Shown here in pieces: positions 27,807 to 42,144 of a stretch of DNA of 57,400 bases. Under the pieces are notes generated by a model, which was not told the DNA's origin, made no database searches, and worked only from the letters and a program-made list of their open reading frames with translations. Origin of the DNA: Armatimonadota bacterium (GTDB lineage: Bacteria; Armatimonadota; Fimbriimonadia; Fimbriimonadales; GBS-DC); NCBI GenBank assembly GCA_023511915.1, contig JAIMAN010000011.1:1-57400 (forward strand), in the 5' to 3' direction. Position 1 is the stretch's first letter; each line of letters begins with the position of its first letter. The translations under genes and the position numbers were made by a program.

Positions 27807-29047
27807 GGTGTCTCCCGCATCAGGGCGATTCCGACACCGACGGCAGCCATCAGGCTCACCAGCGCGGAGCCGCCCGCGCTCACGAACGGCAGCGGCAAGC
27901 CCATCGTCGGCATCAAGCCCACCGCCATGCTAAGATTCATCAACGCGCCCGCGCCAATCCACACGCCCAGCCCTGCCAAATAGAGCCTGCCCGCGCGGGT
28001 GGGCGCGCGCGCCGCGCTCTGAAAACACGCCCACACCAGCAACGCCAGCAGCGCGATGACACCCAGACTGCCCAGCAGCCCAGCCTCTTCGGCGATTGCT
28101 GCGAAGATGTAGTCGCTCTCGACGGCGGGCAGGCTGCGCTTCTCGCGCCCGCCGCCCAGCCCAACGCCGAACAGCCCGCCACTACCGACGGCAATCTGCG
28201 CCCGCACCATCTGATAGCCCGCCTCGCGCTCGTGCGTCCACGGATCCAGTGTCGCCTGTATCCGCTTGATCACATACGCGCCGGGCTGCGTCTCCCACGG
28301 CTGGTTGCGCAGCGCGCCCAGCATCAACGGCGTCGCGACCATCACACCCGCCAGAAACGCCACACCCAGCCCCACCAGCAACACCCACTGCGTTCGCAGC
28401 CCGCCCACGAAACAGACGCCAAACCCCAGCAGCAGCACCAATACCGCCGTATCCTTGTCAGGCTGCAGAGCAATCAGCCCGCCCCCAGAGAGCCACAGTA
28501 GCGCGCCGAGCCACAGCCCAACCGTCGGGCGCAGGCGCGGCGCGCTGCACACTGCCGTTAGCCACAGCAGCGTCGCCAGTTTGTAAAACTCAGCAGGCTG
28601 CAGCGTTATGCCACTCAACGCGGGAATGGGCACGCCAATCCAGCGCGTTGCGCCGTTAAGCGTAAGCGCGCCGGGTAGTTTGAGCGCGAGCCACAGCAGC
28701 GCGCCCCATCCCAGCAGCAGCCACACCCACGCGCTCGCCAACCAGAACCGCCCGCGCACACGACTGCATCCCCACAGTACGCCCACACCCATGAGCAGCC
28801 ACAACGCCTGCATCAGCACAGGGCGCAGCGTCAGAAGCGGGTCAGGCGCGTAGCCATCCCGCGTCAAGCGGTTCAACTCGCCAATCGCGATGCTCCCCTG
28901 AAACAGCAGCCCCACCAGCGCAAGCGCGAACGGCGTCCACAACAGCGCAGGATGCACCCGCGCCGTGCGCGTGCTGGGTTGCACAGGCGTCTGGCGCGGC
29001 GGCTCTATCGGACGACGAGCGTTTCTCAAGGCGTGGGACTGTCGCAT
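27803..29047 (-). CDS. ftsW: SEDS-family glycosyltransferase FtsW
   Basis: A polymerase of lipid II at the septum. About ten membrane segments are visible. The SEDS signatures include GATRWIGVPIPALSGITLQP and QPAEFYKLATLLWL, then LQPDKDTAVLVLLLG, then AVESDYIFAAIAEEAGLLG, and finally LPLPFVSAGGSALVS near the C-terminus. The ATG at 29047 has GGGAGGTG 6 nt upstream; the 535-aa ORF in the track includes 121 residues antisense-like over murD. It overlaps murD by 22 bases. Confidence 0.94.
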   Translation of the reverse strand: MRQSHALRNARRPIEPPRQTPVQPSTRTARVHPALLWTPFALALVGLLFQGSIAIGELNRLTRDGYAPDPLLTLRPVLMQALWLLMGVGVLWGCSRVRGRFWLASAWVWLLLGWGALLWLALKLPGALTLNGATRWIGVPIPALSGITLQPAEFYKLATLLWLTAVCSAPRLRPTVGLWLGALLWLSGGGLIALQPDKDTAVLVLLLGFGVCFVGGLRTQWVLLVGLGVAFLAGVMVATPLMLGALRNQPWETQPGAYVIKRIQATLDPWTHEREAGYQMVRAQIAVGSGGLFGVGLGGGREKRSLPAVESDYIFAAIAEEAGLLGSLGVIALLALLVWACFQSAARAPTRAGRLYLAGLGVWIGAGALMNLSMAVGLMPTMGLPLPFVSAGGSALVSLMAAVGVGIALMRETP

Positions 29048-30519
29048 CCATGCACCTCCCGTACCAAGCGTTTGAACTGCTCTCCTCTGTCGGCGAAGTT
29101 GCGGAACTGGTCGAAACTCGCGCAGCCTGGCGCAAGGATGACCGTGTCGCCTGCGTGCGCCACCCGACGCGCCTCCGCAACCGCCCGCGCCAAGTCGCCG
29201 ACATATTGCCAGCGCGTGTAGCCAAGCGCATCCAACGCCGCGCCGATTGCCCCACCATCCCGCCCGATCAGAAACACCTGCGTTGCGTGCTGCGCCAGCG
29301 ACTGCGCCAGTTGCGCGATACTCTCGTTTTTGTCCACCCCGCCTGCAATCACGAGGCACGGTTTTGGGGTCGCCTGCAGCGATTTCTCCAGCGCGTCGGC
29401 GTTCGTACACATCGAATTGTTAATGTATCGCACGCCGTCCCACGCGCCGACGAACTCCATGCGATGGGGCGCACCCGTGAAACTTGCCAGCGCCTCGCGC
29501 AACTGGTCAGGCGTGCAGCCCAGAATGCTGGCGACCGTCGCCGCCGCAAGCGCGTTCTCCAAGCCGTGCGTGCCCAGAAGGGCGGGTTTGGGCAAGTTGG
29601 CGATGTTTAGGTTTTCGCTTGAAATCTCTACATACGGCTGGGAGGCGGCAAAGAATTTGACTTGAAATTGCCCAACCCCCTCCTTGAGGTTCCCCCTGCT
29701 CGCAGGGGGAACCGAGTCGTCATGGTTCCCCTCGCGAAGCGGAGATGCCTGCCCCGCTTCTCGGTTCCCCTCGCGAAGCGGGGGGAACCTTAAGGAGGGG
29801 GGCACACCTAAATAGTCCAACACCCACCCCACCCCCGCATCCTCGCCATTCAGCACCGCCCAGTCGTCGGGCGTCTGGTTCGCCAGAATCTTCGCTTTCG
29901 CCAAGGCGTAGGCTTCCCAAGTGCCGTGATAGTCCAAGTGGTCGTGGCGAATGTTGGTAATCACGGCGATTCTGGGGCGGAAGGTGTGCGTGTGCAGCAG
30001 TTGGAACGAACTGACTTCGGCGACGAGCCATTCGTCGGGCGCGGCGCGCTCGGCGGCTTCCGTGAGCGTCTGCTCGCCGTCGATGCCCGCGATGTTCCCG
30101 CACAGGCGCGCACGCAACCCCATCGTGCGCAGAATGTGGTGAATCAGCAGCGTGGTGGTGGTCTTGCCATTCGTGCCTGTGATAGCGACGATCGGGGCGC
30201 GCGCGATTCGGTAGCCCAGCTCGATTTCGCTCCACACGAGCACGCCTGCCGCTTCCGCCAGCGTGAAAATCGGGTGGCTGGGCGGCAAGCCTGGGCTGAC
30301 CACCACAAGGTCGTACCCATCCAGGCTTTGGGGCGCGTCGGTTCCCGTGTGTAGGGCAACGCCCAGCTCGGTCAGCGCGTCCGCGAAGGGCAACTCAGCA
30401 TGCAACTCTCGGTCAAAAACCTCTACTCGTGCGCCTCGTCGCGTCAGCGCGCCCGCCGCCGCGACGCCGCTGCGCCGCGCGCCTATGACCGCTACCCGTT
30501 TGCCCGCGAACTCGCTCAT
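29026..30519 (-). CDS. murD: MurD: UDP-MurNAc-L-Ala:D-Glu ligase, with an in-frame repeat insertion
   Basis: The Mur ligase motifs are present: VAITGTNGKTTTTLLIHHIL (ATP loop), NIRHDHLDYHGTWEAYALAK, the HGLENALAAATVASIL segment, and the C-terminal FTGAPHRMEFVG and VIAGGVDKNE. The enzyme adds D-glutamate to the stem peptide. At 497 residues it is longer than the usual ~450. The excess is a ~42-codon low-complexity stretch (SLRFPPLREGN ... PPASRGNLKEG) encoded by a palindromic DNA element (29676-29801) in the linker before the NLEN-type motif. The reading frame stays open through it. GAGG precedes the ATG by 5 nt. Confidence 0.94.
   Translation of the reverse strand: MSEFAGKRVAVIGARRSGVAAAGALTRRGARVEVFDRELHAELPFADALTELGVALHTGTDAPQSLDGYDLVVVSPGLPPSHPIFTLAEAAGVLVWSEIELGYRIARAPIVAITGTNGKTTTTLLIHHILRTMGLRARLCGNIAGIDGEQTLTEAAERAAPDEWLVAEVSSFQLLHTHTFRPRIAVITNIRHDHLDYHGTWEAYALAKAKILANQTPDDWAVLNGEDAGVGWVLDYLGVPPSLRFPPLREGNREAGQASPLREGNHDDSVPPASRGNLKEGVGQFQVKFFAASQPYVEISSENLNIANLPKPALLGTHGLENALAAATVASILGCTPDQLREALASFTGAPHRMEFVGAWDGVRYINNSMCTNADALEKSLQATPKPCLVIAGGVDKNESIAQLAQSLAQHATQVFLIGRDGGAIGAALDALGYTRWQYVGDLARAVAEARRVAHAGDTVILAPGCASFDQFRNFADRGEQFKRLVREVHGCDSPTP
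29676..29801. repeat. Palindromic element, 126 bp, inside murD
   Basis: 21-bp outer arms (CCCCCTCCTTGAGGTTCCCCC and its reverse complement with one mismatch) enclose several smaller hairpins built from GGTTCCCC(C/T)...GGGGGAACC. A unit beginning GGTTCCCCTCGCGAAGCGG occurs twice, 39 bp apart. The length is a multiple of three and no stop codon arises on the murD strand. Related copies lie at 33538 and 41207. Confidence 0.88.
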
Positions 30520-30526
30520 CGTCGCC

Positions 30527-31519
30527 TCACCAACGGCTGATAGCGACGCCGCCTGCCGCCGCTATTGCACCCGCCAGCCAGAACCGCATCACAATCGTCG
30601 GCTCCGCCCAGCCCAGCAGCTCGAAATGGTGGTGAATCGGCGTCGCCCGAAATATGCGCTTGCCTCCACGCAGCTTGACCGAACTCAGCTGCACGACCAC
30701 GCTGAGAATCTCCGCCGCGAACACCAGCCCGACCAGCGCGAACGCGCCCCACTGCTGCAGCGCAGGCGCATGCAGCAAGCTACGAAGCGTCAGCAGCCCG
30801 AAACTCGCGCCCAGAAACATCGACCCCGTGTCGCCCATAAACACCCGCGCAGGATGCACATTCCACCACAAGTACCCCACACATCCGCCTGCGACCATCA
30901 GCGCGTAAGCGACCCAACTCCCCTGCCCTGTGCTGATGGCGTACACGCCCAGCATCGCCAGCGCGGTCAGCCCCGCTGCCAATCCGTCCAATCCATCCGT
31001 CAGGTTGAACGCATTCACCCAGCCGACCAGCCAAAGCACTCCAAGCGCGAAGGTCGCAGGGGTCAGCGGCAGTTGTGCCCCGCTCGCCTCTGCACTCCCC
31101 AGCAGCGGCTCGGCAGCACCCGACGCCGCCAGCCACAGCACATAGATGCTCACGCCCCCCGCAATCAGCTGTAGTGCGAGTTTCTGTTTCCACTCCAGCC
31201 CGCGCTGCCCCGTCCAGCGACGAATCCAGTAGTCGTCCAGCAGCCCGATGAGCGCGAACCACGCCGCGCCTGCAAAAATTACCAGTATAGGAACCAGCGG
31301 CTCGCGCGTCAGTCCCGCCCACGCCGCCAGCCCCACGGCGACCCCCAGCATAATCAACAGCCCGCCCATCGTAGGCGTGCCCTCTTTGACGCGGTGCGTT
31401 TCGGGCGCGTAGGCGTAGATGGTCTGGCGCGCGCGGATGCCTGCCAGCCAGCCAATCCCAGGCTTGCCCAGCAACAGGGCAGCGAGCGCCGCCGTCAGGA
31501 ACACCAGCGCGTCGGTCAT
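30527..31519 (-). CDS. mraY: MraY: phospho-MurNAc-pentapeptide transferase
   Basis: The enzyme moves phospho-MurNAc-pentapeptide onto undecaprenyl phosphate to make lipid I. Motifs: HRVKEGTPTMGGLLI near the N-terminus, FALIGLLDDYW (DD motif), NAFNLTDGLDGLAAG, HPARVFMGDTGSMFLG and ATPIHHHFELLGW. Ten membrane helices fit the hydrophobicity. The ATG at 31519 overlaps the murF stop (ATGA); the track's extra 127 codons are antisense to nothing real and lie over murF. 330 residues is normal. Confidence 0.96.
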   Translation of the reverse strand: MTDALVFLTAALAALLLGKPGIGWLAGIRARQTIYAYAPETHRVKEGTPTMGGLLIMLGVAVGLAAWAGLTREPLVPILVIFAGAAWFALIGLLDDYWIRRWTGQRGLEWKQKLALQLIAGGVSIYVLWLAASGAAEPLLGSAEASGAQLPLTPATFALGVLWLVGWVNAFNLTDGLDGLAAGLTALAMLGVYAISTGQGSWVAYALMVAGGCVGYLWWNVHPARVFMGDTGSMFLGASFGLLTLRSLLHAPALQQWGAFALVGLVFAAEILSVVVQLSSVKLRGGKRIFRATPIHHHFELLGWAEPTIVMRFWLAGAIAAAGGVAISRW

Positions 31520-32910
31520 CGCATCACCGCCTGCTCCAGCCCCAGCGCGCGCGAGCCTTTCAGCAACACGCAGTCCCCCTTCTGCACCGTGCGCAGCAGC
31601 CACGCGCGCGCTTGCTGGGGCGTCTCGAAGTGCAGCAGTCGGCTGGGGGGAAATCCGCCCTCCCTGGCGGCAGCCGCCGTCCATAGCACTTCGCTTCCAA
31701 CCAAAACCACATAGTCCAACGGTTGCGTCGCAAGCCAGCGTCCCAGACTCCAGTGCAACCGCATGCTGTACGCGCCGAGTTCCTTCATGTCGCCCAGCAC
31801 GGCAATCCGTCGGCGCGCGGGGATTTGGTGAATCAGCACCTCCAACGCGGCGCGCATCGAGTCGGGGTTCGCGTTGTAGGCGTCGTTGATCAGCGTCCAT
31901 CCTTCAGGCTGACGCTGCAGCGCCATGCGCATCTCTGGCAGATGGGTGTGGCGCAGGGCGCGCGCCGCTGCTTCGGGCGCAACGCCCAGCACGACCGCCG
32001 TCAGCAGCGCAGCCGTCGCGTTCATCAGCAGATGCTCGCCCAGATAGGGCAGCTCTACCCACACCCGCGCCTGCACTTCGGGCAGGTTCAACGCCACGAC
32101 GCCTGCCGTGTAGTCCTCGCCCAGCTGCACCTCCGTCAGACGGGCGTGCGCTTCGGGATGGCGTCCGAAGGTGTAGATGATCTCGCACGCGCAGCGCGCC
32201 CGCAGGAACTCGTAGAACTTGTCATCGCGCGGCAGTATCGCAATCCCATCGGGGGGCAACGCCTGCACCAGCTCCGATTTCGCTTCCGCAATCGCCTCAC
32301 GGCTGCCCAGCTGCTCGATGTGCGACCAGCCGATTTGCGTGATCACCCCGACGCGCGGCTCGGCTATCTCGGCAAGATAGGCGATTTGCCCACGCCCACG
32401 CATCGCCATCTCCTGCACCATGAATCGGCAGTCGGCGTCCAGCTCGAACAGCGACAACGGCACGCCGAGTTCAGTGTTTAGGTTTCCTGCGTTTTTTTGC
32501 ACAGCGTTGGGGTAGCCCGCCTCCAGCGCAGTGGCAATCATCTCTTTGGTGGTGGTCTTGCCCGTGCTGCCCGTTATGCCAACGACGGTCGCGTTGAACT
32601 GTTTGCGATAGTATCGCGCGAGTTGCCCCAGCGCGTGGACGGTGTTCGGCGTGCGCAGCAGGGGCATCTCCTCCGCGCCCAGCGGCACATATTCCACCAG
32701 CGCGGCGACTGCGCCCTTATCGAACACCTCCTGCAGGTAGTGGTGTCCGTCGGTGCGGTTGCCCCGCAGCGCGACGAATAGGTCGCCTGCTTCGGCAACG
32801 CGGCTATCGATGCACACGCCCGTGACGGCGACCGCTTCAGGCGCGCGGATGTTCACAGGCTTCGCGCCTGTCGCCTCGATGACCTCAGAGAGTGGCATGG
32901 CTCGTCTCAT
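31516..32910 (-). CDS. murF: MurF: UDP-MurNAc-tripeptide:D-Ala-D-Ala ligase
   Basis: Adds the D-Ala-D-Ala dipeptide to the stem. VCIDSRVAEAGDLFVALRGNRTDGH is the N-terminal Mur domain. VVGITGSTGKTTTKEMIATAL is the ATP loop and INDAYNANPDSMRAALEVL is the typical MurF C-terminal motif. 464 residues is normal. It overlaps murE and mraY by 4 bases each. Unlike murD and murE it carries no repeat insertion. Confidence 0.96.
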   Translation of the reverse strand: MRRAMPLSEVIEATGAKPVNIRAPEAVAVTGVCIDSRVAEAGDLFVALRGNRTDGHHYLQEVFDKGAVAALVEYVPLGAEEMPLLRTPNTVHALGQLARYYRKQFNATVVGITGSTGKTTTKEMIATALEAGYPNAVQKNAGNLNTELGVPLSLFELDADCRFMVQEMAMRGRGQIAYLAEIAEPRVGVITQIGWSHIEQLGSREAIAEAKSELVQALPPDGIAILPRDDKFYEFLRARCACEIIYTFGRHPEAHARLTEVQLGEDYTAGVVALNLPEVQARVWVELPYLGEHLLMNATAALLTAVVLGVAPEAAARALRHTHLPEMRMALQRQPEGWTLINDAYNANPDSMRAALEVLIHQIPARRRIAVLGDMKELGAYSMRLHWSLGRWLATQPLDYVVLVGSEVLWTAAAAREGGFPPSRLLHFETPQQARAWLLRTVQKGDCVLLKGSRALGLEQAVMR

Positions 32911-34517
32911 CGCTTCGCTCCTACTGCCTCCTTCGCGACCTCGATGTCGCTGAACGGGAGTTTCTCCGTGCCCACAATCTGGTACGGCTCGTGCCCCTTG
33001 CCCGCCAGCAGAATCAGCTCGCCTGCCTGTGCGGTGTGCAAAGCGTACTCGATGGCGCGTCGTCGGTCAGGCTCCACCAGCGCGACTTTGTGGCGCAGTT
33101 CGTCGGGCACGCCTGCGAGAATCTGCTGCAGAATTTGGTGCGGGTCTTCCGTGCGGGGGTTATCGGAGGTTAGAATTACGCGGTCAGCAAGCTCGGCGGC
33201 GATTCTGCCCATCGTGGGTCGCTTCGTCGCGTCGCGGTCGCCACCGCAACCGAACAGCACGGTCAGGCGCGTCGGGTTCAGCATCCGTCCCGCCTGCAGC
33301 ACCCGCGCCAGCGCGTCGGGTGTGTGCGCGAAGTCCACAATCACCGTGTAGTCGGCGTCTATCGGTGCGCGTTCGAACCGCCCAGGTACCTGCGACAGGC
33401 TCGCCAGCCCCTGCTGAATCGCTTCCAACGGGATGCCCAACGCCAGACCCGCCGTCGTCGCCGCCAGCGCGTTATATAAATTGTAGGGGGCGATTAGCGG
33501 GGTGTGCAGGAAGTATTCGTCCGCGCGGCTTTCGGAACCCCCTCCTGCAGGTTCCCCCTGCACGCAGGGGGAACCAAGTTGCGGTTCCCCTCGCGAGGCG
33601 GGGGGAACCTGCAGGAGGGGGGCAACAGGTTGCACTGCCAACGCCGTCCGCACCCAGAAGCGCAGCGCGTCGCGTCCGTACTCCACGCGCACGGCTCTGA
33701 CCAGCGCGCATTCGCACTCGCCGTAGGTGTAGACCGCACCCTTCGCCTTCGCAGCGAACTGCCTGCCCCACTCGTCGCTGATGTTGATGACCGCGCGGTA
33801 GGGCTTGCCCGACTGCTCCGCCAAGTCGGTGAACAGGCGCAGTTTCGCCGCAGCGTAGGCGTCCATCGTGCCGTGATAGTCCAGGTGGTCTTGCGTCAGG
33901 TTCGTGAACACGCCGACATCGAAGCGAATGCCGTCCGCGCGCCGCTGGTCTAAGGCGTGCGACGAGACCTCCATCACCGCTGCCTGCGCGCCCAGCGCAC
34001 GCGCCCGCTGCAGCAGCGACTGCAACTGGTACACTTCGGGCGTAGTGAACTCGCCCTCGTGCGTTAGCGTCTCGCGCCGACCGTCGGGATACTCAATCCA
34101 CGCGCCCAGCGTGCCGATAAGCACCGTCGGTTTACCCCACGCGACCAGTATCTTCTGCAGCATGTGGGTGGTGGTGGTCTTGCCGTTCGTGCCTGTGACG
34201 CCGATGGTCAGCATGTGCCGTGTCGGGTCGCCGTACAGCCGCTGCGCGATGCGCCAGAGCGCCTCGCGGGTGTCGGGCACGCGGGCGTAGGGGGTGTTCG
34301 GCGGCAGCGTGTCGGCGTCGCGTTGCAGCAGCACTGCTGCCGCGCCCCGCTGAAGGGCGTCGCTGACGAAACGATGCCCATCCTGCTGCCGACCGACCAG
34401 CGCGACGAACAGGTCGCCCGGCTGCACGCGCCGCGAATCGACGCAGACGCCTCTAATCTCGGCGTCGCCGTGCGCCTCCTGTATCGGCAGACCCTGTAGC
34501 AGCTCGCTTAGTCGCAT
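32907..34517 (-). CDS. murE: MurE: meso-diaminopimelate-adding ligase, with an in-frame repeat insertion
   Basis: CVDSRRVQPGDLFVALVG, GVTGTNGKTTTTHMLQKIL and FTNLTQDHLDYHGTMD are clear. The DNPRTEDP motif of meso-DAP-specific enzymes is present, so the peptidoglycan should be of the DAP type. At 536 residues it is ~40 longer than usual; about 28 codons (PLLQVPPASRGEPQLG...) come from the palindromic element at 33538-33621, placed just before the APYNLYNALAA motif. That is the region equivalent to the murD insertion. The gap to ftsI is 4 nt. Confidence 0.95.
   Translation of the reverse strand: MRLSELLQGLPIQEAHGDAEIRGVCVDSRRVQPGDLFVALVGRQQDGHRFVSDALQRGAAAVLLQRDADTLPPNTPYARVPDTREALWRIAQRLYGDPTRHMLTIGVTGTNGKTTTTHMLQKILVAWGKPTVLIGTLGAWIEYPDGRRETLTHEGEFTTPEVYQLQSLLQRARALGAQAAVMEVSSHALDQRRADGIRFDVGVFTNLTQDHLDYHGTMDAYAAAKLRLFTDLAEQSGKPYRAVINISDEWGRQFAAKAKGAVYTYGECECALVRAVRVEYGRDALRFWVRTALAVQPVAPLLQVPPASRGEPQLGSPCVQGEPAGGGSESRADEYFLHTPLIAPYNLYNALAATTAGLALGIPLEAIQQGLASLSQVPGRFERAPIDADYTVIVDFAHTPDALARVLQAGRMLNPTRLTVLFGCGGDRDATKRPTMGRIAAELADRVILTSDNPRTEDPHQILQQILAGVPDELRHKVALVEPDRRRAIEYALHTAQAGELILLAGKGHEPYQIVGTEKLPFSDIEVAKEAVGAKR
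33538..33621. repeat. Palindromic element, 84 bp, inside murE
   Basis: Perfect 21-bp outer arms (CCCCCTCCTGCAGGTTCCCCC and reverse complement) enclose two hairpins, GGTTCCCCCTGCACGCAGGG... and GGTTCCCCTCGCGAGGCGGG.... Length is 28 codons with no stop on the coding strand. It is read in a different frame from the murD copy, so the encoded peptides differ. Confidence 0.9.
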
Positions 34518-34521
34518 CGTT

Positions 34522-36414
34522 TCACCCTGCGCGTGTGCGCGGATTGAAAATCGTTGGCGGGGTGCGCGTCGTCTCGCGTCGGGACGGCGGGATACGCCAA
34601 TACCACATCAGGTACTGCGCCACTTGGCGGAACGCAGGCGCGGCGATTTCCCCGCCGTAGTAGCCGTTCTGTGGCTCGTCCGCCAGCACCAAAATCACCG
34701 CGCGGGGCGCGTCCGCAGGCACAATCCCCACGAACGAGGCGACATACCTGCCCTGTGCATAGCCGCGTCCGCCCTCAATAGCTTTCTGCGCCGTGCCCGT
34801 TTTTCCCGCTACCCAGTAGCCCTTCAGCTGCGCGAGTTTGCCTGTGCCCTGCTCCACCGCCTGCACCAGCCCGCGAATCACTAAGCGCGCGTGTTCGGGG
34901 GGTACAATCGGCTCTGGTTCACGGCGCGCGAGTGCAGGCTCCAGCACGACGCGTGGGGCGACCCAGCGTCCGTCGTTCGCCAGCACGCCGTATGCCGCCG
35001 CCAGCGCCAGTGGCGAGACCATCAGCCCCTGCCCGAACGCAAGGTTCGTCGCCCGCAGATCCCTGCCCCAGCGTACCTTGTCGGGCGCAATGGTGTGCCC
35101 CACCCACTCGCCCCCCAAGCCCGCCTGCATCGGCTCGAACAAGTGGAACCGCTGCAGCGCGCGGTAGACGCCTTCCAACCCGACGCGCAGCCCCATCTGC
35201 GCCATCGCCACATTGCACGAATGGCACAGCACATCCTCCAGCGTCTGCAGCCCGTGCCCCCTTCCCCGTCCATGCACGACACAACGGATGGACTTTCTGC
35301 CCACGCGAATTGCGCCCTGACAGTAGTAGCGGCTCGTGGGGTTAATCGCGCCCTCTGCTAACAGCGACGCCACTACCAGCGGTTTGACGGTAGAGCCTGG
35401 CTCGCACAGGAACTCCACCGCGCGGTTGCGCAGCGGCTCCATCGCGCGGTCGCGCTCGGCAGGCGTGTCGTTGCGCGGGGGCTGCAGCCCCTTGCGTGTA
35501 GCAAGATCGAAAGTCGGGCGGTTCGCAATCGCCAGAATGTCGCCCGTGTGTGGCTCCAGCACCAAAATCAGCGCGCCTTTGGGACGATGCCTGCGCCAGA
35601 GTTGCTCCAGCGCGTCTTCGGCAACCGTCTGGATGGCTGTATCCAGCGTCAGGCGCACCGACGCGCCGTCGGTGGGCAGCACGCGCTGGCGAATGGTTTC
35701 GGGAATCAGCAATCCGCCGGGCGCAATCTCACCCTCTTCAATGCCGTTCTTGCCCGCCAGCACGGCGTTGTAGCCCTTCTCGATGCCGCTTGCAGCGACC
35801 AACCTGTTGCCCGTGAGGCTATCCTCCTGCAGTTGCGTTAGCCCAATCACCTGCGGGGCAATCGAGCCTTGCGGGTAGGCGCGCGTGGGCACTTGCTCGC
35901 GTGTCAGCACAGGTCGTTCGTCTCGCCTGAGGCGGCGGAACGCGCTCTCAAGGTCGGTGCGCAGGGCTTGATATCGCTCCATCGGCACGCTTGTCGCCAC
36001 GCGCAGGTAGCGGCGTCCCGACTGTTGGGCTTGCACAATCTGCGCCTGCAGCTCTGTGGGGTCGCTGTTCAGTCGCCTGGCGAGGATGCGCGCTGTCGTC
36101 TCAGGCTCGCGCACGCGCGTGGGGTCAATCGCGATGTGGCAGCAGATTTGGCTCTGCGCCAGCGGCTTGCCGTGCCGATCCAGTATCGCGCCGCGCTTTG
36201 CCAGCAGCGGGCGACGGCGCAGCCGACGACGCAGCCCCGCATCGTAGAGCGCGTCGTGCTGAAACACCTGCAGGTGCACCACCCGCGCCGCCACCAACGC
36301 GCCGCCCACCGCCAGCGCCGTGCCGAGGCACCCCATCCGCCGAAGTTCCTGCGACTTCAAGCGCACAGTCACATGCCGATACATCGGGCGCGCGTTCGCC
36401 ATCGGTTCCCTCAT
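34522..36414 (-). CDS. ftsI: Septal transpeptidase FtsI / PBP2-3 class B
   Basis: An N-terminal membrane helix (LGTALAVGGALVAARVVHLQVF) is followed by the class B dimerisation domain, with RGAILDRHGKPLAQS. The transpeptidase domain has SxxK in CEPGSTVKPLVVASL, SxN in CHSCNVAMAQMG and KTGTAQ near the end. The protein should cross-link septal peptidoglycan together with FtsW. There is no PASTA domain. It overlaps the ftsL stop by 4 bases. Cys residues beside the SxN motif (CHSCN) are slightly unusual. Confidence 0.94.
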   Translation of the reverse strand: MREPMANARPMYRHVTVRLKSQELRRMGCLGTALAVGGALVAARVVHLQVFQHDALYDAGLRRRLRRRPLLAKRGAILDRHGKPLAQSQICCHIAIDPTRVREPETTARILARRLNSDPTELQAQIVQAQQSGRRYLRVATSVPMERYQALRTDLESAFRRLRRDERPVLTREQVPTRAYPQGSIAPQVIGLTQLQEDSLTGNRLVAASGIEKGYNAVLAGKNGIEEGEIAPGGLLIPETIRQRVLPTDGASVRLTLDTAIQTVAEDALEQLWRRHRPKGALILVLEPHTGDILAIANRPTFDLATRKGLQPPRNDTPAERDRAMEPLRNRAVEFLCEPGSTVKPLVVASLLAEGAINPTSRYYCQGAIRVGRKSIRCVVHGRGRGHGLQTLEDVLCHSCNVAMAQMGLRVGLEGVYRALQRFHLFEPMQAGLGGEWVGHTIAPDKVRWGRDLRATNLAFGQGLMVSPLALAAAYGVLANDGRWVAPRVVLEPALARREPEPIVPPEHARLVIRGLVQAVEQGTGKLAQLKGYWVAGKTGTAQKAIEGGRGYAQGRYVASFVGIVPADAPRAVILVLADEPQNGYYGGEIAAPAFRQVAQYLMWYWRIPPSRRETTRTPPTIFNPRTRAG

Positions 36415-36833
36415 AGGTCAGCGTTGCCCATCGCCACAGGCTTAGAGGGCGGCGTCGGAGGCGCGTCCAGTCCGACCATCGTCAGGTCGGGCTGCTCGTC
36501 GACACGCACCATGCCCGCCTGCTCCGCCCACCGGCGCAGGGCGATTTCATCGGTGTGCGCGGCAATCTGCCCGCGCAGCCGATCGATGTTCAGCTGCGTG
36601 CGGTCAATCTCGCGGTTCAGGCTCGCCTGCCGCGCGTGTTCGTAGTTCAGCATCGCCACGGCGGTCATATGGCTTGTCAGCACGGCTGTGATGATAGCCA
36701 TCGGCAGCAGCGGTATTCGGCGCGGGCGCGCCTTGCGACGCGGTCGCGCAGGCTGCGCTATCGGCGGTCTCGGACGCGCCGAGGGCGTGTGTCCTCTCCC
36801 CTGCTCGGCTCTCGGTTTCGTGGCTGTTCGCAT
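36411..36833 (-). CDS. ftsL: FtsL-like division protein
   Basis: A basic, proline-rich cytoplasmic segment of ~45 residues, one membrane helix (LLPMAIITAVLTSHMTAVAML) and a short coiled coil (LNREIDRTQLNIDRLRGQIA) make the FtsL/DivIC layout. It lies exactly between rsmH and ftsI, where ftsL belongs. Sequence similarity alone would be weak. I chose the second ATG (36833), because GGAGG directly abuts the first ATG and is 6 nt from the second. Confidence 0.8.
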   Translation of the reverse strand: MRTATKPRAEQGRGHTPSARPRPPIAQPARPRRKARPRRIPLLPMAIITAVLTSHMTAVAMLNYEHARQASLNREIDRTQLNIDRLRGQIAAHTDEIALRRWAEQAGMVRVDEQPDLTMVGLDAPPTPPSKPVAMGNADL

Positions 36834-36848
36834 GGTCATCCTCCTTCC

Positions 36849-37781
36849 CTACCCCACGCGGCGAGCGGCGCGCAGTTTCGCGCTCCGTGCGCGGGGGTTG
36901 TCTTGAATCTCCGCTTCGCTCGGCTCCAACGGCTTCGGGGTCAAAATCTCCAGTGTGGGTCGGTCGGCTGGCTTTGCGGGCGCGCCGACCCCGACAGGCT
37001 CACGCGCCCGCTGGCTGAGGTTCCGAAAGGCGTGCTTGACCGCGCGGTCTTCCAGCGAGTGGTACGCCAGCACACAGATGACGCCCCCCACCCGTAGACA
37101 GCCTGCCATCGCCTCGAACGCAGGCTGCAGGTCATCCAATTCGCGGTTGACGGCAATCCGTATCGCCTGAAAAGTGCGCGTGGCGGGGTGGATGCGCTTC
37201 TCTTGGAACTTTTTCGGGATGGCTTCCAACACGGCGGCGGCGAGGTCGCCTGTGGTGTTCATGCGCCCTTGGTCGCGCCTGCGGATGATCGCGCGGGCAA
37301 TCGGCTTCGCCCACTGCTCGCCCCCGTACTCGCGCAGGACACGCACCAACTCTGGCAGCCGCACCCGCTGCAGCAGGTGGTAGGCGGTGGTGGGCTGTTC
37401 CCTGTCAAGGCGCATGTCCAGCGGCGCGTCGTAGCGAAACGCCAGCCCGCGCTCAGGGTCGTCCAACTGCGCACTGCAGACGCCCATGTCCACCAAAATC
37501 GCGTCCACTGCGTCTATTTGCAATTCATGCAACACTTCAGGTAAACTTCGGTAGTCGGCGTGGAGATAATACGCCATGCAAGCGATGTCGGCGAGGTTCT
37601 GCTGGGCGAGTGCAAGCATCTGGGCGTCGCGGTCAAGCGCGATGAGTAGCCCCTCACGCCCAATTCGCTCGGCAAGTGCGCGCGCGTGCCCCCCTGCCCC
37701 AACGGTGGCGTCCACCACAACGCCGCCCACAGGCGGGTTCAGGTACTCCAGCACCTCACGCACCATCACAGGCTTGTGCAT
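36849..37781 (-). CDS. rsmH: 16S rRNA m4C1402 methyltransferase RsmH
   Basis: An SAM-dependent enzyme acting on 16S rRNA. MHKPVMVREVLEYLNP, VVDATVGAGGHARALAERI (SAM loop), LVDMGVCSAQLDDPERGLAF and the ICVLAYHSLEDRAVKHAF motif are diagnostic. 310 residues is normal. It starts one base after the mraZ stop codon. Confidence 0.96.
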   Translation of the reverse strand: MHKPVMVREVLEYLNPPVGGVVVDATVGAGGHARALAERIGREGLLIALDRDAQMLALAQQNLADIACMAYYLHADYRSLPEVLHELQIDAVDAILVDMGVCSAQLDDPERGLAFRYDAPLDMRLDREQPTTAYHLLQRVRLPELVRVLREYGGEQWAKPIARAIIRRRDQGRMNTTGDLAAAVLEAIPKKFQEKRIHPATRTFQAIRIAVNRELDDLQPAFEAMAGCLRVGGVICVLAYHSLEDRAVKHAFRNLSQRAREPVGVGAPAKPADRPTLEILTPKPLEPSEAEIQDNPRARSAKLRAARRVG

Positions 37782-37782
37782 C

Positions 37783-38223
37783 TCAAATCCCCAGATCCCT
37801 CGCGTAATCGATCAAGTCTGTGGCATTCTTCACCTCGCGCAGGTGGTCGTAGAACGCGAGTTTCTCCCAGATTTCCACGCGGTTCGAACAGCCAGCAATC
37901 ATCACTTCCGAGTTCGGCTCAATGCCCGCCCATTCGCGCAGCTCCTGCGGAATCGCCACGCGCCCTTGACTGTCGGGGGCGACCTCCGACGCCGCGCTAT
38001 ACAGAAACCGCTGCAACTGCATCTTCTGCCGATCGAAGGTCGCGCCGTTTTCGAACTTCTGGCTCAACTCTTGCCAGCGGTCGAGGGTGAACACCAGCAC
38101 GCACCCCTCGAATCCGCGGGTCATAACGAACCGCTCGCCGAGGTTGGCGCGGAAGCGCATGGGGATTACCACGCGCCCCTTGTCGTCCACCGCAATCGTA
38201 CTCCCGCCTTGCAAGATTGCCAT
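37783..38223 (-). CDS. mraZ: MraZ transcriptional regulator of the dcw cluster
   Basis: Two SpoVT/AbrB-like halves each carry the DxxxR motif: DDKGRVVIPMRFR near residue 14 and DSQGRVAIPQELR in the second half. 146 residues is normal. MraZ is known to bind tandem short repeats upstream of its own gene and repress the dcw operon. Four such boxes lie directly upstream here (38242-38278), downstream of a consensus promoter. Confidence 0.96.
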   Translation of the reverse strand: MAILQGGSTIAVDDKGRVVIPMRFRANLGERFVMTRGFEGCVLVFTLDRWQELSQKFENGATFDRQKMQLQRFLYSAASEVAPDSQGRVAIPQELREWAGIEPNSEVMIAGCSNRVEIWEKLAFYDHLREVKNATDLIDYARDLGI

Positions 38224-38241
38224 TCGCTACCCCCGTGATTA

Positions 38242-38278
38242 CCACTGAGTCTCCACTCAGCTACCACTGGGTCTCCAC
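38242..38278 (-). promoter_or_regulatory. Four MraZ operator boxes, 11-bp period
   Basis: On the minus strand GTGG recurs four times (plus-strand CCAC at 38242, 38253, 38264 and 38275), each exactly 11 bp apart, in contexts like CAGTGGAGAC and GAGTGGAGAC. Known MraZ sites are tandem GTGG/TGGG-containing repeats with about 10-11 bp periodicity. The array lies between the -10 box and the mraZ ATG, well placed for repression. Confidence 0.8.
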
Positions 38279-38286
38279 TGGGATAT

Positions 38287-38315
38287 ATTATAGCGCATCG
38301 AAAACGATTTGTCAA
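38287..38315 (-). promoter_or_regulatory. Consensus sigma-70 promoter of the dcw cluster
   Basis: Minus strand TTGACA (38315-38310), a 17-bp spacer and TATAAT (38292-38287) match both hexamers perfectly. The predicted start site is near 38280, just at the edge of the MraZ boxes. This is the only full consensus promoter I found in the window. Confidence 0.88.
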
Positions 38316-38338
38316 GGGCTAAAGCCTCCACTTGCCCT

Positions 38339-38367
38339 CAAATTGCCCCAATTTGGGGGTCAATTTG
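38339..38367. promoter_or_regulatory. Long near-perfect dyad between mraZ and the lyase gene
   Basis: CAAATTGCCCCAA-T-TTGGGG(GT)CAATTTG is a 13-bp inverted repeat interrupted only by two extra bases. It lies upstream of the mraZ -35 box and about 80-110 nt before the lyase ATG. A related TTGGGGTTGAC occurs 22 bp further on. An operator or a DNA-bending site is more likely than a terminator, as no coding region ends here. Confidence 0.5.
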
Positions 38368-38395
38368 CCATATGTTGGGGTTGACAGGCGGCACG

Positions 38396-38420
38396 GTGGT
38401 GTCCAGTGGGGGCTTAGTGG
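38396..38420 (+). promoter_or_regulatory. Three GTGG boxes before the lyase gene (possible MraZ sites)
   Basis: GTGG occurs at 38396, 38406 and 38417 on the + strand with 10- and 11-bp spacing, in contexts CCAGTGGGGG and TTAGTGGGGG. Spacing and orientation toward the gene resemble the mraZ operator on the other strand. Confidence 0.35.
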
Positions 38421-38448
38421 GGGTACAATCCCACTTCGGAGGCTACCG

Positions 38449-39828
38449 ATGCCGTTTCAGACCATTATCGAGCCGTTTCGCATCAAGGTCGTCGAGCCGA
38501 TACGCCTCACCACGCAGGCGGAACGCGAAGCCATCCTGCGCCGTGCGCACTACAATCTGTTCCTCGTGCGCGCCGACGATGTGATGATTGACCTCTTGAC
38601 CGATTCGGGCACTTCAGCGATGAGTTCCGAGCAGTGGGCGGGCGTGATGCGCGGCGACGAATCGTATGCAGGCAGCCACAGCTACTACTTCTTCGAGGAG
38701 ACCGTGCGCGAGATTTTCGGCTTTCGGCATGTGATCCCCGTGCATCAAGGGCGCGCGGCGGAACGCATTCTATTCTCGCTGGTGTGCAAGGCGGGCTGTG
38801 TTATCCCCAACAACACCCACTTCGACACCACCCGCGCGAACATCGAGTATCTCGGCGGGCGCGCGGTAGACCTCCCCTGCCCCGAACTGCGCGACACCAC
38901 GACGCCCCACCCCTTCAAGGGCAACATGGACACCGACGCGCTGGAGCGGCTGATTGCTGAGGTGGGCGCGGAGAACATCCCGCTCGTGATGATGACGCTC
39001 ACGAACAACTCCGGCGGCGGACAGCCTGCCTCGATGGCGAACATTCGCGCCGTGAGCCACATCTGCCGCAAGCACGGTGTCCCCTTCTACATCGACGCCT
39101 GCCGTTTCGCCGAGAACGCCTACTTCATCAAACTGCGTGAGCCAGGCTACGCCGACAAAACACCGCTGGAGATTGCCCGAGAGATGTTCTCCTACGCCGA
39201 CGGCTGCACCATGTCGGCGAAAAAAGACGGCTTGGCGAACATCGGCGGCTTCCTCTGCACGAACGACGACGCGCTTGCCCAGCAGGAACGCGAGCTGCTC
39301 ATCCTCACGGAGGGCTTCCCCACCTACGGCGGGTTGGCAGGGCGCGACTTAGAGGCGATGGCAATCGGGCTGCGTGAGGTGCTGGACGAGCATTACCTGC
39401 AGTACCGTATCCGTTCCACCCGCTACTTGGGCGAGCATATCGCGCGGGAGGGCGTGCCTATCGTGCAGCCTCCAGGCGGGCATGCCATCTACATCGACGC
39501 GGGGCGCATGCTGCCTCACATTCCGCCGCTGCAGTATCCGGGGCAGTCGGTGGTGGTGGAGCTGTATCGGCTCGGCGGGGTACGCAGCTGCGAGATTGGC
39601 TCCGTGATGTTCGCGAAGCGCGACCCCGACACGGGCGCGGAGCAGCCTGCGCCGCGCGAGTTGGTGCGTCTCGCCATCCCACGCCGCGTCTACACCCAGA
39701 GCCATGTAGACTATGTGGTGGAGGTAATCTTGGAGGTCTACCGTCGGCGCAAGCAGCTGCGCGGCTACCGCATCACTTGGCGGACGCCGTTTCTGCGCCA
39801 CTTCAGTTGCCACTTCGAGCCTGTGTAA
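38449..39828 (+). CDS. tnaA: Tryptophanase / tyrosine phenol-lyase family enzyme
   Basis: A PLP beta-eliminating lyase that splits tryptophan to indole (or tyrosine to phenol), pyruvate and ammonia. The pattern is very close to TnaA: LLTDSGTSAMSSEQW, MRGDESYAGSHSYYFFEE, HQGRAAERI, NNSGGGQPASMAN, DACRFAENAYFIK and the PLP-lysine segment MSAKKDGLANIGG. EGFPTYGGLAGRD and IPRRVYTQSHVDY follow. Choosing between TnaA and TPL needs an alignment. GGAGG lies 7 nt before the ATG at 38449. It is divergent from mraZ and may share regulation with it. Confidence 0.88.
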   Translation: MPFQTIIEPFRIKVVEPIRLTTQAEREAILRRAHYNLFLVRADDVMIDLLTDSGTSAMSSEQWAGVMRGDESYAGSHSYYFFEETVREIFGFRHVIPVHQGRAAERILFSLVCKAGCVIPNNTHFDTTRANIEYLGGRAVDLPCPELRDTTTPHPFKGNMDTDALERLIAEVGAENIPLVMMTLTNNSGGGQPASMANIRAVSHICRKHGVPFYIDACRFAENAYFIKLREPGYADKTPLEIAREMFSYADGCTMSAKKDGLANIGGFLCTNDDALAQQERELLILTEGFPTYGGLAGRDLEAMAIGLREVLDEHYLQYRIRSTRYLGEHIAREGVPIVQPPGGHAIYIDAGRMLPHIPPLQYPGQSVVVELYRLGGVRSCEIGSVMFAKRDPDTGAEQPAPRELVRLAIPRRVYTQSHVDYVVEVILEVYRRRKQLRGYRITWRTPFLRHFSCHFEPV

Positions 39829-39829
39829 G

Positions 39830-39858
39830 GGCTGGGGCGGTGCGCCGCTGCCCCAGCC
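39830..39858. terminator. Bidirectional hairpin after the lyase gene
   Basis: GGCTGGGGC and GCCCCAGCC form a 9-bp stem that can extend inward (GCGG/CCGC). It lies between the convergent lyase and cytochrome P460 genes, 2 nt after the lyase stop. No T-run follows, so its efficiency is uncertain. Confidence 0.55.
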
Positions 39859-39864
39859 AAGGCG

Positions 39865-40362
39865 CTACGGCGTCCACTTGCTAATCACCAAGTCGCGGTT
39901 CGGCGACGACTGGTGGCAGCCCATGCATTGCCCGACGGGATCGGTAACGAGTGCCTTGCCGTTGGCGTCCCACGCTTGCCAGCCCCAGCCGCCCGATTGA
40001 CGGTACTTGCGGCTGTCTTTAACCATCAGCGCGGTGACCTTCTTTTTGCCCGCAATATACATCCCGTTAGCATCCTTCGCCTCATACAAGACGAACACAA
40101 TCTGGCTGCCATCGGGATACTTTGTGCCGTTTTTGCGGTACACATCCGCCGCTGCCGCGTTTGCATAGATGTGGTGCACGCCGCCAAACGCGCCAAACAG
40201 CGGGTGCTTCTCGCTATAGATGACGCCCGTCGTGATGTGAGTCCAGTTGCGCCACCCTGCGGGCAGTTTATCAGGGGTGGGTACCTTGGACTGCCCAGCG
40301 AACGCCACAACGCCCAACACGATGCATAACGCAATTCCGATGAGAAATCCTCGCAAGGTCAT
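39865..40362 (-). CDS. Cytochrome P460-family exported haem protein
   Basis: A signal peptide (MTLRGFLIGIALCIVLGVVAFA) is followed by the P460 domain and a single c-type haem site, CMGCH, near the C-terminus (GQCMGCHQSSPNRDLVISKW). P460 proteins oxidise hydroxylamine or react with NO; most members with this short form are periplasmic cytochrome c' beta types. I prefer the ATG at 40362, because the upstream ATG at 40374 has no ribosome site, although AGGAGG is then only 2 nt away. It lies downstream of an HxlR regulator with a dyad between them. Confidence 0.82.
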   Translation of the reverse strand: MTLRGFLIGIALCIVLGVVAFAGQSKVPTPDKLPAGWRNWTHITTGVIYSEKHPLFGAFGGVHHIYANAAAADVYRKNGTKYPDGSQIVFVLYEAKDANGMYIAGKKKVTALMVKDSRKYRQSGGWGWQAWDANGKALVTDPVGQCMGCHQSSPNRDLVISKWTP

Positions 40363-40412
40363 CACCTCCTGCAAAGATTTCTACCCGACCTATGCGTCGC
40401 AGCGCAAGAGGT

Positions 40413-40444
40413 TTACCGAAAAGAAAATATTCACTTTTCGGTAA
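40413..40444. promoter_or_regulatory. 11-bp perfect inverted repeat between the HxlR and P460 genes
   Basis: TTACCGAAAAG-aaaatattca-CTTTTCGGTAA is a perfect 11-bp inverted repeat around a 10-nt A/T-rich centre. It overlaps the HxlR stop codon and ends 51 nt before the P460 start. Without a T-run on the minus strand it looks more like an operator than a terminator. Confidence 0.55.
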
Positions 40445-40727
40445 TTATCGTCTCCGTGTCGGATTCGTCAACCCACTCTTGGGCGAACGCCCGCATCTGT
40501 CGTATAAGTTGAATGAGCCGCTGCCCGCGCTCTGTCAACTCATATTCAACGCGCGGCGGGACTTCGGGATAGGAGTGGCGCACGACCAAGCCGTAGCGTT
40601 CCAGCTTATGGACACGCTCGTATAGCACCTTCGTCGTGAGACCTGGCAGGGCGCGCAGCAGTTGTCCAGGGCGGTTGACGCCCTGACCCAGCGCGTCCAG
40701 TATCGCCACCGTCCACTTGCACCGCAA
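40431..40727 (-). CDS. HxlR-type winged-helix regulator (start uncertain)
   Basis: CKWTVAILDALGQGVNRPGQL, LPGLTTKVLYERVHKLERYGLVVR and VEYELTERGQRLIQLI are the HxlR DNA-binding domain. Family members sense aldehydes, quinones or redox changes; here one cysteine lies in RCKW. The only canonical start is the TTG at 40727, which omits the first helix. In-frame residues QEYRQQEAFHRLTDI upstream look like that helix but have no ATG, GTG or TTG. The gene may use a rare start, or there may be a sequence error. It probably controls the adjacent P460 gene. Confidence 0.65.
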   Translation of the reverse strand: MRCKWTVAILDALGQGVNRPGQLLRALPGLTTKVLYERVHKLERYGLVVRHSYPEVPPRVEYELTERGQRLIQLIRQMRAFAQEWVDESDTETIITEK

Positions 40728-40783
40728 GATGTCGGTGAGTCGGTGGAACGCCTCCTGCTGGCGGTACTCCTGACTCGTGGGCG

Positions 40784-41176
40784 TTACTCCTTTTTTCGTA
40801 CACTTCCCCCCTCTTTCGGGCTAGCGTCGATTTCGTTTTTGAAGGTGCTGCGTCCGACGCGCCGCTCCTTGTAGAACTTGCCCACCACAACCACCGCGTC
40901 GTCTTCCTCGACGGATAAGTGCCCGTAGCTGAAGACCACGAGCTGTTTGCCGCCGCTGTCCAGCTTGAAGGTCGTGTAGGGGTTCCCCACACGCGAGGTC
41001 TTCTTCTTAATGTCGTCCACCTCGCCCTCCACCTGTACCATCTTGCGGTGGAACTTGTCGGGGTTCTCCAGCAGCGCGGCAACCGTCGTCTTAATCGGGT
41101 TCGGCGCGGGCTTCTGCTGCGCCAGCAGACCCACACACAGCAACGCAATTACGCCAAGCGTCATCCATACTCGCAT
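40784..41176 (-). CDS. Exported OB-fold-like small protein
   Basis: A signal peptide (MRVWMTLGVIALLCVGLLAQ) is followed by a ~95-residue beta-rich domain (KFHRKMVQVEGEVDDIKKKT, YTTFKLDSGGKQLVVFSYG, DDAVVVVGKFYKERR). It resembles the small OB folds found in periplasmic proteins. GAGGAGGT is 6 nt before the ATG. It is the first of three minus-strand genes with HxlR and P460, so it may belong to the same response. I cannot assign a ligand. Confidence 0.65.
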   Translation of the reverse strand: MRVWMTLGVIALLCVGLLAQQKPAPNPIKTTVAALLENPDKFHRKMVQVEGEVDDIKKKTSRVGNPYTTFKLDSGGKQLVVFSYGHLSVEEDDAVVVVGKFYKERRVGRSTFKNEIDASPKEGGSVRKKE

Positions 41177-41206
41177 AGATACCTCCTCAACATGTTGTGG
41201 GACAGA

Positions 41207-41292
41207 CCCCTCCTTCAGGTTCCCCCCACTTCGTGAGGGGAACCATTGGAGCGCGGTTCCCCCTGCACGCAGGGGGAACCTGCAGGAGGGGG
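41207..41292. repeat. Palindromic element, intergenic copy
   Basis: Outer arms CCCCTCCTTCAGGTTCCCCC and GGGGGAACCTGCAGGAGGGG enclose two GGTTCCCC...GGGGAACC-type hairpins, one identical (CCCCTGCACGCAGGGG) to that in the murE copy. Flanking GTGGGACA and TGTCCCAC extend the dyad. It occupies the 185-nt gap between an isomerase-like gene and the OB-fold gene. Confidence 0.88.
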
Positions 41293-41361
41293 TCAGCAGT
41301 GTCCCACGCTACATATCTCTGGACAATAGGTTCAGCACCGCCGACTGAATTCCTACCATCC

Positions 41362-42144
41362 CTAACGCCCCCGATTGCGCAAGGCGAGGAGCCTTTTGGC
41401 GAATCGGCTCACGGCGGGCATCGCTGGCTCCGTGTGTTCGTACTCGATAGCGACATAGCCCTTGAAGTTCGCTGCCCGAAGGATGCGGAAGATGCGCTCG
41501 TAGTCCAGCTCGAAAAACTCGTCGCGGGCGTTGCGCGAGTGCGTTTTGGCATGCACGCTCACGGCATAGGGGGCGAGTTTCTCGATCATCTCGTAGTGGT
41601 TCTCGCGGGTGTTCGCGCCGTCCAGCAGGATGCCGAAGTAGTCGCTTTTGAGGTCGCGCACGAATCGCAGCGTGCGCTCGGCGTCGGCGGTCAGCCCCCA
41701 GTGGGTCTCCAGCGCCAGCACGACGCCCTGCGCCTCCGCATACGGCAACGCCTGCTCGATGCACGCGCGCGACCAGTCATACGCCTGCGCCTCCAAGTAG
41801 CCCTGCGGGATGCCCTGATCCGCAAAGATGCGCAGCATCGGCGCGCCCAGCGCAACCGCGATGTCCACCCACTGCTTGACATGTTCCACCTGCGCCTTGC
41901 GGAAGTCGGCGTCGGGGTGGGTGAAGTGGTTGCGCGTCGCCGTGCCCGAAACTGCCAGCCCGTAGCGGAAGCATTCGCGCTTGAGCGCGTTCAGCGTGGC
42001 GCGGTTCGTGTCGGGGAAGTAGTAGCCCGTGAGTTCCACCCCGTCCAGCCCCAGCTCGGCACACAGGCGAATGAACTCCGAGAGGCTCATCTCGCGCTTG
42101 GTCAGAGCCTCTCGGAAGGAATAGGCGGCGCAGCTGAGGCGCAT
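41362..42144 (-). CDS. Sugar phosphate isomerase/epimerase-like TIM-barrel protein
   Basis: The 260 residues follow the xylose isomerase-like/AP endonuclease 2 TIM-barrel: LSCAAYSFREAL, GLDGVELTGYYFP, LGAPMLRIFADQG, VVLALETHWGLT, FGILLDGANTREN and the C-terminal YVAIEYEHTEPA. Metal ligands E (ALETH), D/H and E (IEYE) are in place. Family members interconvert or cleave sugars and inositols; no substrate is indicated. It follows the dockerin-tailed gene by 2 nt and is probably co-transcribed with it. Confidence 0.82.
   Translation of the reverse strand: MRLSCAAYSFREALTKREMSLSEFIRLCAELGLDGVELTGYYFPDTNRATLNALKRECFRYGLAVSGTATRNHFTHPDADFRKAQVEHVKQWVDIAVALGAPMLRIFADQGIPQGYLEAQAYDWSRACIEQALPYAEAQGVVLALETHWGLTADAERTLRFVRDLKSDYFGILLDGANTRENHYEMIEKLAPYAVSVHAKTHSRNARDEFFELDYERIFRILRAANFKGYVAIEYEHTEPAMPAVSRFAKRLLALRNRGR

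Follow-up and report, generated by a model that had tools for sequence, protein, structure and literature searches.

In-frame copies of a dispersed palindromic repeat in murD and murE of a Fimbriimonadales bacterium

Rickettsia is the best-known source of palindromic repeats that lie in frame within essential genes; to our knowledge, no mover of the repeats has been established there. The Rickettsia palindromic elements (RPEs; Ogata et al. 2000) are palindromes located in frame within genes, and the gmk enzyme that carries one is still active, as reviewed in PMC2229807 and PMC10969869. Long inverted repeats inside protein-coding genes have also been described for the mitochondria of Nematomorpha (PMC6649704), although these palindromes are perfect and maintained and, unlike the present ones, do not form a dispersed repeat of a bacterium. 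Among the papers searched, none dealt with such elements in the present lineage.

We analyzed a stretch of 57,400 nucleotides (the window) from a metagenome-assembled genome (MAG) of this lineage (Fimbriimonadales, Armatimonadota; G000, 2.73 Mb in 122 contigs). Its murD and murE genes each carry an additional segment, which is very probably a copy of a dispersed, RPE-like mobile palindromic repeat (family 1) tolerated in surface loops. There is good support for identifying the segments as in-frame copies of an RPE-like dispersed palindrome; tolerance of the inserts in predicted disordered loops is supported by structural models and by comparison with relatives; mobilisation by elements encoding a DUF559 endonuclease is plausible but unproven. 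The features are listed in Table 1.

Table 1. Genes and family-1 copies in the window
Feature	Position	Strand	Description and evidence
murD	29026-30519	-	497 aa; Pfam Mur_ligase_M/C and MurD-like_N
murE	32907-34517	-	536 aa; Pfam
Family-1 palindromic core in murD	29676-29802	.	Repeat and genome searches, fold z -8.9
Family-1 palindromic core in murE	33538-33622	.	Compact two-hairpin form; repeat search, fold
Third family-1 copy of the window	41206-41292	.	Intergenic, between minus-strand ORFs 40784-41176 and 41362-42144

An initial annotation of the window had reported a 126-bp segment from 29676 in murD as a relative of the murE element; the segment proved to be palindromic. This relationship was confirmed by two matching blocks, with 91% identity over 44 nt (29674-29717 vs 33536-33579) and 93% over 43 nt (29762-29804 vs 33582-33624). 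The murD core comprises a CCCCCTCCTTGAGGTTCCCCC hairpin, a spacer with a further partial copy, and a hairpin ending in AGGAGGGGGG. Predicted folding energies were -96 kcal/mol for the murD element (z = -8.9 vs shuffles) and -83 kcal/mol for the murE element (z = -9.8). The two copies are read in different frames and give different peptides (LLQVPPASRGEPQLGSPCVQGEPAGG in MurE, PPSLRFPPLREGNREAGQASPLREGNHDDSVPPASRGNLKEG in MurD); what the copies share is therefore DNA sequence rather than a peptide, as the annotation had proposed. An element built to be coding was rejected, since open frames in the family-1 core were as frequent as in shuffles (3.18 vs 3.17). An Rfam scan of 29000-42000 detected no intron and no known RNA family for the element. 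Its only match, an L31-Actinobacteria leader at 34908-34971 (+; 36.4 bits, gathering threshold 35), lies elsewhere, inside a penicillin-binding-protein-type ORF (34522-36414) on the opposite strand, and is probably due to chance.

Beyond the copies annotated initially, we detected the third copy of the window and about 70 further clusters in the genome. Perfect GGTTCCCC-N8-20-GGGGAACC hairpins occurred 132 times in the genome, compared with zero for the reversed-pattern control. Counted from searches and retrieved regions, family 1 formed 73 clusters, 56 of them with at least two hairpins (53 with two and 3 with three; the other 17 had one). Most copies are intergenic, and the units measure roughly 85-150 bp. 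The consensus consists, in order, of a CCCCCTCCTTAA arm, GGTTCCCCCTGCNNGCAGGGGGAACC, a spacer, GGTTCCCCTCGCGAAGCGGGGGGAACC, and a complementary arm ending in AGGAGGGGG, with TGCA, TTCA, and TTGA as variants at the arm end; CCCCCTCCT...AGGAGGGGG are terminal inverted repeats in most copies. Among congeners, 202 family-1 hairpins were found in G001 and 102 in G008, but none in G004 or G006. One region of G001 (L246; C7:9300-10700) holds several family-1 cores in a tandem array with short spacers. Roughly half of the two-hairpin copies are enclosed by a larger outer palindrome ending in TAATACCAATCGC...GCGATTGGTATTA, which at other places carries cores of a second palindromic family (family 2) instead, i.e. 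cores are nested and swapped. The genic family-1 copies that we inspected consisted of the core only, without the outer palindrome. Half sites of the outer palindrome without an adjoining family-1 core were also noted (L242, L243, and L245).

Two known classes of repeats were compared with family 1. Like miniature inverted-repeat transposable elements (MITEs), the units are small and non-coding with inverted-repeat ends and many copies, and the outer TAATACCAATCGC...GCGATTGGTATTA palindrome looks MITE-like. As to other hallmarks of MITEs, we recognised no target-site duplication, and the own genome yielded no parent transposase. Regarding a possible parent with the same ends, composites of DUF559 with family-2 palindromes were present in G006 and G009, and the own genome gave no DUF559 match. 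It is unlikely that the repeats are of the REP/BIME type and were moved by a RAYT (Y1 transposase). Such repeats are likewise palindromic, numerous, and mostly intergenic, and the own genome contains two PF01797 matches; however, neither Y1 transposase locus is adjoined by a family-1 or family-2 motif, on which ground a RAYT origin was rejected, and REPs, given as 20-40 bp (PMC3733652), are much shorter than these units.

At least 11 family-1 copies lie in frame within protein genes, as judged by a codon-usage heuristic and spanning ORFs. They include copies in (i) murD and murE; (ii) alr; (iii) prmC; (iv) a Ppx/GppA-type gene; (v) a GlcE-like gene; (vi) the linker of an ABC ATPase; (vii) two glycosyltransferase-like genes; and (viii) one repeat-rich gene. 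Except for murD and murE, the gene names derive from reading the translations and not from a profile scan. Since the heuristic that separates genic from intergenic copies selects the former by an open spanning frame, there is some circularity in stating that every genic copy preserves the frame. Eight doubtful same-strand copies were inspected by eye; most were located at the start or end of a gene or between genes, one (C95) looked like a further in-frame case in a membrane protein, and in this partial check no gene broken by a family-1 copy was seen. The copies in murD, murE, alr, and prmC give different peptides in different frames, with no conserved peptide.

Empty sites were found in relatives. 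In the Alr alignment, the insert was absent from all congener proteins listed, and in G010 the closest relative's DNA aligned on both sides, with the two halves abutting at 903736|903737; no clear target-site duplication was apparent in this comparison. PrmC and Ppx of congeners also lack the insert. The Ppx/GppA-type protein is encoded by one ORF in G010 and by two ORFs at separate places in G004 (C6 and C4) and G006 (C295 and C168; L336-L339), and a split match pattern was also seen in G003, G007, and G009. For MurD, the insert amounts to ~43 aa relative to the nearest relative (497 aa vs 454 aa in L061; range among relatives 451-464 aa), and MurD of G010 aligns only to residues 1-235 and 286-496 of the window protein. 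The in-frame insert of MurE is ~30 aa long (536 aa vs 503 aa in L064; relatives without insert have 502-503 aa). The relatives' proteins are thus shorter by whole residues at the same points, in agreement with the earlier assignment of both inserts as frame-preserving.

In principle, the inserts might never reach the finished protein, being excised by RNA processing or protein splicing or passed over when translation bypasses the hairpin. The hairpins are very stable as RNA (-83 to -96 kcal/mol), and bypassed palindromes are reported from yeast mitochondria, namely those of Magnusiomyces (cited in PMC6649704). Yet the inserts in murD, murE, alr, prmC, and others are free of stops and keep the frame, neither of which bypassing needs, and a Pfam scan of MurD and MurE revealed no Hint splicing or intein domain, just as Rfam gave no intron; we consider removal very unlikely. 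Both ligases were modelled with AlphaFold using alignments of 32 sequences, with a mean pLDDT of 90.7 for MurD and 92.2 for MurE. The MurD insert (in the model, residues about 241-284) falls between helix 228-236 and strand 286-291 (pLDDT about 45, mostly <50) and the MurE insert (residues about 300-328) between strands 285-291 and 334-339 (pLDDT mostly <50). Since both are low-pLDDT loops on otherwise well-folded models, they are predicted to be permissive, disordered loops and not buried core strands.

A profile-profile comparison of the MurD and MurE alignments (32 sequences; E = 5.6e-47) placed the MurD insert (residues about 238-284) after MurE residue ~255 and the MurE insert (residues about 293-330) at MurD residue ~304. 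The inserts occupy different loops of the central domain, ~40 aligned residues apart, which rules out the same structural site and contradicts the 'equivalent place' assigned initially. Nor does the MurD insert directly precede the NLEN-type motif, as had been stated: in the model, strand 286-291 and two short strands intervene. Of the earlier suggestion that a strike at the same position in both ligases reflects a permissive loop or a targeting preference, the permissive loops are upheld by the models (pLDDT <50), while the shared structural position is not.

Comparison of the insertion sites across related genomes showed congeners with empty sites, and also that each loop had been struck again separately. 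In MurD, the loop reads SPHERGQGGEG in L033 and TAWKRGQGSEG in L035, and contains a large insert with family-2 repeats and DUF559 in L034. Because of their CCCTCACC/GGGTGAGGG-like ends, the loops of L033 and L035 are probably decayed family-2 copies. In MurE, the loop of L061 (complete genome AP024673.1, KatS3mg018) contains PSPKPLGEGDAGGER, an in-frame family-2 insert, and that of L063 a double hairpin of family 2 (111 nt), whereas L062, L064, L065, and L091 lack an insert. Family-2 matches numbered 137 in G061 (the genome of L063), 98 in G010, and 101 in the window's genome. The MurD loop and the MurE loop are thus each a recurrent landing site on their own, and this recurrence may reflect permissiveness, targeting of pre-existing palindromes, or both. 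Of the five family-1 loci listed for the complete genome G010, three have a family-2 locus at a distance of no more than about 250 bp (hand count), which suggests, as a lead, that palindromes attract later insertions. In-frame family-2 arrays were also seen in MurF and N-terminal MurE at L275 (G061:C41:2000-5200), and CHSERSEES repeats in a YbeY-like ORF at L273 (G009:C28).

The filling of the same loops in several species might be taken to mean that the inserts are adaptive new loops, e.g. with a regulatory or binding role, kept on the Mur ligases for their function. This is highly improbable: the peptides are entirely different from one species or frame to another, the insert is missing in several congeners, the loops are predicted to be disordered, and the same DNA occurs in unrelated genes. 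That the inserts are assembly artefacts at repeats is hardly credible. Many copies do lie near contig ends, and the MAG consists of 122 contigs; on the other hand, murD and murE are situated well away from the ends of the 57.4-kb contig C93, a family-2 insert is present in frame in MurE of the complete genome AP024673.1, and events of this kind recur in independent MAGs.

Two congeners contain a nuclease domain between palindromes. This domain, DUF559, is described as common among Vsr-like PD-(D/E)XK endonucleases (PMC12907096). In the MurD frame of JP3_11 (G006), the Mur domain is followed by a hairpin, DUF559 (PF04480, E = 4e-35), and family-2 repeats up to the contig end; the C-terminal half of MurD opens another contig with the same 48-bp repeat in the same frame. 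This gene thus spans two contigs, and repeats are places where a MAG assembly may be broken or wrongly joined. A YbeY-like ORF of G009 shows the arrangement core-DUF559-core, whose two cores are inverted with respect to each other and match at 82% over 105 nt. A DNA-methylase-like ORF of G004 contains DUF559 as an in-frame fusion, here with no strong hairpins. Read from their sequences, L263 (G007) and L268 (G009) have DUF559 in an intein-like ORF, followed in L263 by a DNA-methyltransferase-like C-terminus. Unlike these two intein-like cases, the JP3_11 MurD-DUF559 frame gave no intein domain in a Pfam scan, and its nuclease is read through in frame.

Across the phylum, DUF559 was detected in 67 of 151 genomes (E ≤ 1e-15). 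Long hairpins were located within 350 bp of DUF559 at 17 of the 30 loci examined, a rate 8.1 times that further away (p = 1.5e-8; murD control loci, 0 of 16), but the size of this excess is uncertain because the control is unmatched for intergenic content and the far regions hold more coding DNA. At L321, L265, and L266, both DUF559 flanks are the same palindrome. The window's own genome (G000) has no DUF559 match, though the repeats are present, and for this reason DUF559-dependent mobility is treated only as a lead. Among the papers searched, none appeared, from title and abstract, to tie DUF559 to such palindromes.

Taken with the Rickettsia elements, family 1 shows clear parallels: (i) palindromes of about 100-150 bp with a long stem-loop; (ii) copies between genes as well as in-frame copies within conserved genes that are unrelated to one another, the sites being empty in relatives; and (iii) host enzymes that apparently tolerate the insert. 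It differs in that it belongs to another phylum, its copies are read in several frames and yield no single conserved peptide, the same loops are used by two palindromic families, and one congener has a nuclease-carrying form at this murD site. Family 1 works like an RPE, a likeness drawn from descriptions of RPEs, and is not filed as one because its copies encode no conserved peptide.

On this reading, new family-1 copies would insert more or less at random; gene-breaking insertions would be purged, and in-frame insertions in surface loops would survive and, as with RPEs, be translated into an additional, disordered loop. Less certainly, a Vsr/DUF559-type nuclease may mobilise elements whose non-autonomous ends or remnants are the palindromes, and the palindromes may also serve as preferred landing sites for later insertions. 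A broader and tentative possibility, for which we would claim rather low confidence, is a non-splicing in-frame mobile class in which a Vsr-like DUF559 endonuclease between palindromes enters essential genes with the frame kept intact and sheds palindrome-only copies that spread through the genome and land again in existing palindromes and permissive loops. The nuclease-carrying form at the same murD site provides a concrete candidate for the mobility enzyme. With several repeat families in a thermophile (hot-spring) lineage, the reused loops in two essential Mur ligases represent natural experiments on loop tolerance.
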